A stretch of 11,153 bases of DNA, taken from assembly GCA_016201085.1 (NCBI GenBank), contig JACQDO010000062.1:1-11153 (forward strand), read 5' to 3'. Positions 9,460 through 10,836 of this stretch are shown piece after piece (position 1 is the first letter of the stretch; the number at the start of each line of letters is the position of its first letter). The stretch comes from Hyphomicrobiales bacterium. GTDB taxonomy: Bacteria; Pseudomonadota; Alphaproteobacteria; Rhizobiales; Xanthobacteraceae. The notes under the pieces were generated by a model. It saw only the letters and a program-made list of their open reading frames with translations. It was not told the DNA's origin and made no database searches. The position numbers and the translations under genes are program-made.

Positions 9460-10836
9460 ATGAGCCAGCCTCTCAGAGTTGGCGTCGCCGGATTGGGCAC
9501 GGTCGGCGCCGCCTTAATCGCCCAGGTGGCACGCCAGCGCGAGCAGTTGGCAGCGCGTTGCGGCCGTTCGATCGAGATCGTCGCGGTCTGCGCGCGCTCG
9601 CGCGTCAAGAACCGCGGCGTCGATCTTAAGGCGATGAAATGGTTTTCCGATCCGGTCGCGCTCGCGCGTGCGCCCGATATCGACGTGTTCGTCGAACTGA
9701 TCGGCGGTGCCGGCGATCCGGCCAAGAGCGCGGTTGCCGCGGCGCTTGACGCCGGCAAGTCGGTGGTCACCGCCAATAAGGCGCTACTCGCCAAGCACGG
9801 CGTCAAGCTCGCCGCGCTGGCGGAGAAGCGGCATGTCGCGCTCAATTTCGAGGCGGCGGTCGGTGGCGCCATTCCGATCGTGAAGACCTTGCGCGAGGGA
9901 TTGGCCGGCAATGCCATCGACCGCATCTACGGCATCCTCAACGGCACCTGCAATTACATCCTGACGCGGATGGAGCAGGACAAAATGGCGTTCGCCGAGT
10001 GCCTGAAGGAGGCGCAGCGCCTGGGCTATGCCGAGGCCGATCCGACCTTCGACATCGAGGGCCACGACACCGCGCAGAAGCTGTCGATCCTGGCGAGCCT
10101 CGCCTTCGGCAGCAAGGTCGACCAGCGCGCGATTTATGTGGAAGGCATTTCCTCGATTGCGCCGGCCGATCTTGCCGCCGCCGACGAGCTCGGCTACCGG
10201 GTGAAGCTTCTGGGCGTCGCCGTGAAGACGCCGATTGGCATAGAGCAGCGCGTGCATCCCACGATGGTGCGCAAGGATTCGGCGATCGCACAGGTGATGG
10301 GCGTGACCAATGCCGTCACCGTGGACGCCGACGGTATCAATCCACTGACATTGGTCGGGCCGGGCGCCGGCGGGACCGCCACCGCCTCGGCGGTATTATC
10401 TGACATTGGCGACGTGGCGCGCACGCAAGTCGGGTATACCCGACTTGCGCATGATAGATTGCAGAACTCGGGTAAACCCGAGTTCTGTGTGCGCACGGAG
10501 CCGTTCGGGCGGCCGACCGCGCGGCTCACCAGCGTGCGCAAGGCCCCCATGCAGCGGCACGCCGGCGGCTACTACATCCGCCTGCAAGCGCGTGATAAGC
10601 CGGGAACCGCGGCGACCATCGCCAAACGGCTCGCGCAGCAGGATATTTCGTTGGAATCCATCGTGCAGCGGCATGCCAAGGACGGCAGCGGTCCGGCGCC
10701 CAAGATCGGCTCCGTCCCCGTTATCCTCATTACCTATGCGACCAGCGAAGATGCCGTGCGCAAAGCCCTTGCGGCGGTGGGTCGCGATAGGGTCATCTCT
10801 GGCCGACCGCAGGTTATCCGAATAGAGAAGAATTGA
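9460..10836 (+). CDS. hom: Homoserine dehydrogenase with C-terminal ACT domain
   Basis: Hom reduces aspartate semialdehyde to homoserine, the branch point to threonine and methionine. The 458-residue protein has the NAD(P) motif GVAGLGTVG (residues 8-16), K107 in TANKALLA, the signature GILNGTCNYILTRM, and GYAEADPTFDIEGHDTAQKL with D203 and K207, spaced as the catalytic Asp/Lys pair of the yeast enzyme. The C-terminal ACT domain (GGYYIRLQARDKPGTAATIA and ISLESIVQRH) is the usual site of threonine feedback inhibition. The frame is open further upstream, but that would run back through alaC; ATG 9460 gives the family N-terminus. No ribosome site is seen, so translation is probably coupled to alaC. 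Residues of about 323-346 are an extra segment encoded by a palindromic insertion in the linker before the ACT domain. Confidence 0.95.
   Translation: MSQPLRVGVAGLGTVGAALIAQVARQREQLAARCGRSIEIVAVCARSRVKNRGVDLKAMKWFSDPVALARAPDIDVFVELIGGAGDPAKSAVAAALDAGKSVVTANKALLAKHGVKLAALAEKRHVALNFEAAVGGAIPIVKTLREGLAGNAIDRIYGILNGTCNYILTRMEQDKMAFAECLKEAQRLGYAEADPTFDIEGHDTAQKLSILASLAFGSKVDQRAIYVEGISSIAPADLAAADELGYRVKLLGVAVKTPIGIEQRVHPTMVRKDSAIAQVMGVTNAVTVDADGINPLTLVGPGAGGTATASAVLSDIGDVARTQVGYTRLAHDRLQNSGKPEFCVRTEPFGRPTARLTSVRKAPMQRHAGGYYIRLQARDKPGTAATIAKRLAQQDISLESIVQRHAKDGSGPAPKIGSVPVILITYATSEDAVRKALAAVGRDRVISGRPQVIRIEKN
10419..10497. repeat. In-frame double-palindrome insertion within hom, flanked by 7-bp direct repeats
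   Basis: Palindrome A (10424-10449) is a perfect 26-bp dyad, CGCAAGTCGGGTA followed directly by its reverse complement. Palindrome B (10462-10487) has 12-bp arms, CAGAACTCGGGT and ACCCGAGTTCTG, around AA. The two share the core CGGGTA/TACCCG-like sequence and lie 12 bases apart. GCGCACG occurs at 10419-10425 and again at 10491-10497, exactly 72 bp apart. One repeat plus the palindromes therefore equals 24 codons, leaving hom open and duplicating Arg-Thr (321-322 and 345-346). This is the pattern of a small mobile palindromic element with a target-site duplication. Confidence 0.75.

Follow-up and report, generated by a model that had tools for sequence, protein, structure and literature searches.

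An in-frame segment of hom in a Hyphomicrobiales bacterium is likely a copy of a dispersed two-hairpin repeat

The hom Locus and Its Insert

The 11,153-nt stretch of DNA analysed here (the window) carries the homoserine dehydrogenase gene hom, the single match to this gene in the genome (G000) at E ≤ 1e-60. Within hom lies an in-frame insert made of two hairpins joined by a spacer, and the whole is enclosed by a short outer stem (Table 1). The initial annotation of this DNA had described two palindromes, one perfect and one of 12+2+12 nt, 12 nt apart and in frame in the coding sequence, and all of this is borne out. It had also counted 24 extra codons duplicating Arg-Thr; alignment with relatives gives instead 22 codons replacing one. 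The filled site reads AR-[22 residues]-VRT, so that 66 nt replace the 3 nt of a typical empty site (net +21 codons).

Table 1. Coordinates of hom and of the parts of its insert in the window
Feature	Position	Strand	Description
hom, homoserine dehydrogenase	9460..10836	+	458 aa, insert included; Pfam PF03447, PF00742, PF01842
In-frame 66-nt insert TQVGYTRLAHDRLQNSGKPEFC	10423..10488	+	22 codons replacing one codon of relatives (Gly in 27/28); from alignment
Hairpin A	10424..10449		Perfect 26-nt palindrome (13+13; 13 bp, 0-nt loop); core AAGTCGGGTATACCCGACTT
AT-rich spacer, 12 nt	10450..10461	+	Holds both differences between the two hom inserts
Hairpin B	10462..10487		12+2+12 palindrome (12 bp, 2-nt loop); core AACTCGGGTAAACCCGAGTT
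Outer stem, 5' arm	10417..10423		Pairs with 10488–10494: 7 pairs, one G-U; encloses hairpins A and B
Outer stem, 3' arm	10488..10494		Also present in RNA fold

The insert occupies residues 322–343 of Hom, in the linker between the Pfam matches to Homoserine_dh (residues 139–316) and ACT (371–440), which agrees with the earlier placement before the ACT domain. An AlphaFold model of the protein has a mean pLDDT of 62.4, falls below 50 over residues 324–355, and is too weak for further use. Hairpin B is an imperfect inverted copy of hairpin A (77% complementarity over 35-nt arms), and both are palindromic in themselves. A degenerate pattern covering both cores, allowing up to three mismatches, occurs twice in the window, where 0.10 occurrences are expected; one of 200 shuffles reached two. 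The predicted RNA fold of positions 10412–10500 has an energy of −56.4 kcal/mol, compared with a shuffle mean of −27.9 (n = 200; z = −8.35), and takes the shape of an outer stem bearing two long hairpins and a 3-bp spacer helix. Rfam has no family at gathering score in 10200–10700, where matches are sub-threshold only (19 bits for a threshold of 45, and 17.2 for one of 114).

The heptamer GCGCACG is present on both sides, at 10419–10425 and 10491–10497, 72 bp apart, as had been noted. These repeats are not a target-site duplication, since the 3' copy is native coding sequence, the codons for Val-Arg-Thr, and is missing in a second carrier of the insert (G027; L050/L175), which has the 5' copy. 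Native V-R-T follows the site in seven of 28 empty loci, one of which (G015) has the exact 7-mer. The flanking 7-bp duplications that the initial annotation had proposed looking for are thus not supported at hom.

Empty and Filled Sites in Relatives

We found one hom match each in 41 of 43 genomes of the same genus, and examined the site in 30 of these 41 loci. Twenty-eight of the 30 are empty and two are filled, G000 and G027, the hom of the latter being the same gene, by coordinates and sequence, as that of L050, a Pseudolabrys draft genome. The residue at the empty site is Gly in 27 cases and His in one. A genome-contig set of 80 hom loci, which overlaps the same-genus set, contains 78 with the empty spacing (31 residues), one filled (L050, 52 residues) and one that was not measured. 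A protein search with the insert region returned two proteins, those of G000 and L050, from three candidates. A comparison with relatives had been suggested earlier, with presence of the segment in all of them as the adverse outcome; that outcome did not appear.

The two carriers do not group together. In a 30-protein Hom tree built after removal of the insert, G000 and the empty G010 are sisters (support 100/95), while G027 belongs to a nine-member clade (100/100) whose other eight members are empty. Gain and loss of the insert need two changes in all 200 bootstrap trees; this kinship is that of a tree of one protein. The empty sites and the non-sister carriers support the earlier suggestion that the element may be mobile.

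At this one codon the inserts of G000 and G027 are identical at 64 of 66 nt. Their flanks agree at 757/945 and 271/345 positions (79.7%), and the difference between insert and flank has a P of 4.9e-5 with sites treated as independent. Right beside the insert the two carriers share 23/30 and 22/30 positions, and G000 shares 24/30 and 26/30 with its empty sister G010. When 391 genomes of the family were scored by their best two matches each, no other match among those listed exceeded 89% identity to the hom insert. For the pair, this leaves either a second insertion at that codon or the transfer of a tract that barely exceeds the insert in length.

A Dispersed Repeat Family

The first further copies in the window's own genome were found by BLAST of the hom segment. 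An alignment (A2) and a covariance model (R1) were built from 11 copies, ten from this genome and one from L050. R1 finds 11 places in G000 at E ≤ 1e-12, ten of them in the training set, and three weaker ones. Matches occur in 37 of the 43 genomes of the genus at E ≤ 0.01 (0 to 91 per genome), and in 149 of 296 genomes and 38 of 47 genera across the family at E ≤ 1e-6. The single-contig genome G042 has 96 matches, both strands counted. Copies of the palindromes elsewhere in the genome, whose absence the initial annotation had regarded as adverse, are thus present there and across the family.

For comparison we collected 102 elements and excluded L147, which lacked a flank, and three with duplicate flanks, leaving 98 (97 with 60-nt flanks); they are among the best-scoring loci and not a random draw. 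Length varies from 62 to 69 nt and is 64 nt in 47 of the 98, and the mean pairwise identity of these distinct elements is 77%. In nine copies for which hairpin dimensions were taken, hairpin A, spacer and hairpin B keep a fixed order, stems are 12–14 bp and loops 0–4 nt. In G042, two copies stand head to tail 1 nt apart (L213:1436–1564), are 98% identical, and are followed by more hairpin A-like sequence. Searches of the open-licence literature gave us no description of the family.

In-Frame Copies in Other Genes

Ten of the 98 elements lie in frame in conserved genes (hom, two; dnaE2, three; uvrD, three; folC, one; hrpB, one). The resemblance to the protein-coding palindromes of Rickettsia noted earlier is apt, given in-frame copies in five unrelated conserved genes. 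The hrpB copy (L296; G210, from another genus in the family) lies in a gene for an HrpB-type helicase, where the opposite strand of the element is the one read in frame.

In dnaE2 a single site is filled in three of 30 loci (G037, G041 and G032) and empty in 25, and two were unmatched by the reading motifs; in folC the site is filled in one of 30 and empty in 29. The dnaE2 copy falls inside the span of the Pfam HHH_6 match rather than in a clear linker. Identity of the element and of the upstream flank is 64/64 and 273/300 for G037–G041, 61/64 and 270/300 for G037–G032, and 61/64 and 286/300 for G041–G032. The element is thus more conserved than its flank in two of the three pairs and equal in the last, which leaves room for constraint on the element. 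Comparison of L232 with L227 shows that the outermost pair of hairpin A in the G032 copy has changed from C-G to T-A on both sides and that another pair is broken, so the palindrome is kept only in part there. The DnaE2 proteins of L151 (G041) and L232 (G032) have additional in-frame repeat-like segments, PPPLWGR and PLPNPPP, downstream of the element.

The three uvrD copies, two of them with Pfam support, sit within larger insertions after L-x-Q, between helicase motifs II and III; the G025 protein has 74 residues where PcrA, the protein used for comparison, has two. The insertions are at the same place in L145 (G039), L154 (G024) and L170 (G025), whose genomes are apart in the Hom tree. Di Nocera et al. 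2013 (PMC3733652) had already described, in other species, REPs within genes for UvrD/Rep helicase and DnaE2, so a preference for such genes is known from other repeats.

Copies Nested in Other Inverted Repeats

Outside the ten copies in genes there are 88 elements, which need not all be intergenic. An outer stem of at least 6 bp within 6 nt of the element is present in 39 of them and missing from 49. Exchanging flanks among elements gave a mean of 6.8 (largest 16 in 300 trials), and shuffling letters a mean of 2.1 (largest 6). Six of the outer-repeat patterns are also found free of any element, with 6 to 28 distinct examples each and loops of 2–40 nt, as the pattern allowed. The inner subtype tracks the outer class: 13 of 14 copies in the TTCCC/TCCCC class have the hairpin B core GACAT (eight commonest subtypes per class, the classes being bins chosen by eye). 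This suggests that composites are also copied as whole units.

Among the ten copies in genes, only two or three Watson-Crick outer pairs flank the three dnaE2 copies and those in folC, hrpB and the second hom carrier; counted with wobble, the last has four pairs, versus the seven (one wobble) that flank the insert in the window. With wobble allowed, the flanks of the replaced codon in the 28 empty hom relatives reach at least six pairs in none and at least four in one, which has five; the remainder have 0–3. We also considered the hom site as the apex of a pre-insertion hairpin, GCGCGC-GGC-GTGCGC, and rejected it, as none of the 28 empty relatives has this string (15 have GCGCGC-GGC, and three have GTGCGC after the site). 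In view of the weak pairing in empty relatives, we read apex placement as a tendency of copies outside genes; as an explanation of the hom site it finds no support.

Relation to Known Repeats and Candidate Mobilisers

The repeat belongs with protein-coding palindromes and intragenic REPs, as a variant of those, and lengthens the short list of known protein-coding palindromes by one that is family-wide. Like it, GTAG and CGTC REPs are short dispersed palindromes, mainly intergenic and in some cases intragenic; PMC3733652 covers Bradyrhizobium and R. palustris and gives 20–30 aa for dimers or groups within genes. Looking on both strands and up to 6 nt from the element ends, we found a GTAG or CGTC tag in none of 97 elements. 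According to that paper, CGTC REPs have stems of 8–9 bp and loops of 4–5 nt, unlike the nine copies measured here; GTAG REPs have stems of 5–13 bp and loops of 2–20 nt, a range that takes in hairpin B but not hairpin A, whose loop is 0 nt. Because GTAG stems reach 13 bp, length alone cannot set the present repeat apart from them. Fifteen of 87 copies that are not in genes lie within hairpins fitting the CGTC-stem pattern (CCA tail not required).

The palindromic elements of Rickettsia (Ogata et al. 2002, as cited in PMC3733652) are likewise in-frame palindromes in unrelated protein genes, a property shared by the copies in hom, dnaE2, uvrD, folC and hrpB. They are from other bacteria, and the likeness drawn here is one of placement in genes.

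Y1/IS200-like transposases are the partners in REP-RAYT systems, which the present repeat resembles in its dispersed hairpin pairs. It differs in that a Y1 transposase (PF01797), the one transposase family searched for, is found in just one of the 43 genus genomes, neither G000 nor G042; a control search was positive in five of 14 genomes, E. coli included. Mobilisation by Y1/RAYT was rejected on this ground, and carriage by plasmids or phages was rejected because neither collection has a match to the repeat at E ≤ 0.01.

Spread of the Repeat and Alternative Explanations

The repeat forms a family with empty sites, in-frame copies in five genes and frequent placement at apices, and we think it likely that the hom segment is a genuine in-frame copy of this dispersed, family-wide and apparently non-autonomous two-hairpin repeat (~64 bp), spread by capture or within composite repeats and near-neutral where it lies. 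We propose capture at apices because copies are placed at the apices of other inverted repeats. The two-hairpin module would be taken up by a hairpin loop that had been opened, or copied wrongly, at the replication fork, and the hairpin nuclease SbcCD is a candidate opener of such apices. Alternatively, the repeat may travel with whole composite repeats; neither route would involve a Y1-type transposase. Copies in genes would survive where length and frame allow, and the carrier proteins probably tolerate them there at close to no cost. The wider question is by what route palindromes of the REP kind spread in the absence of a known transposase, and why single-copy genes and genes for DNA repair keep them in frame; this family, with in-frame copies in five genes and empty sites read for hom, dnaE2 and folC, lets modes of spread be tested. 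Its surprising features are the nesting in other inverted repeats and the recurrence at one hom codon in two non-sister species. A more specific version, which we regard as unlikely, would have the module come back independently, as if homing, to one and the same codon of hom in different species, through transposase-free cellular capture of palindromes (at hairpin apices where these exist), building nested hairpins and in-frame segments.

Several of these observations could also be read as the work of a MITE or similar element, moved by an IS transposase that acts in trans and recognises either the hairpin ends or repeat targets. Match numbers do differ widely among genomes, and hairpins A and B could be taken for terminal inverted repeats, yet each is itself a palindrome. 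REPs are reported as targets of IS elements from five families (IS3, IS110, IS4, IS256 and IS5; PMC1525189). With no target duplication at hom, the only site where this was assessed, with Y1 so rare and with the plasmid and phage collections free of matches, such an origin is possible but doubtful. Somewhat less plausible is horizontal transfer between the two species of a hom segment carrying the insert. The inserts are 97% identical and had no rival above 89% among the matches listed (best two per family genome), but identity is low right beside them, where G000 resembles its empty sister instead; any transferred tract would therefore be little longer than the insert itself.

An origin of the hom insert in one event in an ancestor, after which selection on the DNA or the protein preserved it and many lineages lost it, would account for the shared codon and the near-identical inserts, and the conservation of the dnaE2 element above its upstream flank in two pairs, though not in G041–G032, would fit it. 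It is improbable nonetheless: the carriers are not sisters, two changes were needed in every bootstrap tree, hairpin A is altered in the G032 dnaE2 copy, and losses would need precision to leave a plain Gly codon in G010 and 26 other empty loci. A role of the segment as a functional RNA element, with control over how hom and the gene after it are expressed or translated, draws on its very stable fold; we consider this very unlikely, as the segment is absent from 28 of the 30 same-genus loci, has copies in unrelated genes and outside genes, and lies where Rfam reports no family at gathering score. An assembly artefact is scarcely credible. The two carrier genomes are draft assemblies of 526 and 680 contigs, but the same insert stands between different flanks and in an open frame in two separate assemblies, and the repeat family recurs in the single-contig genome G042.
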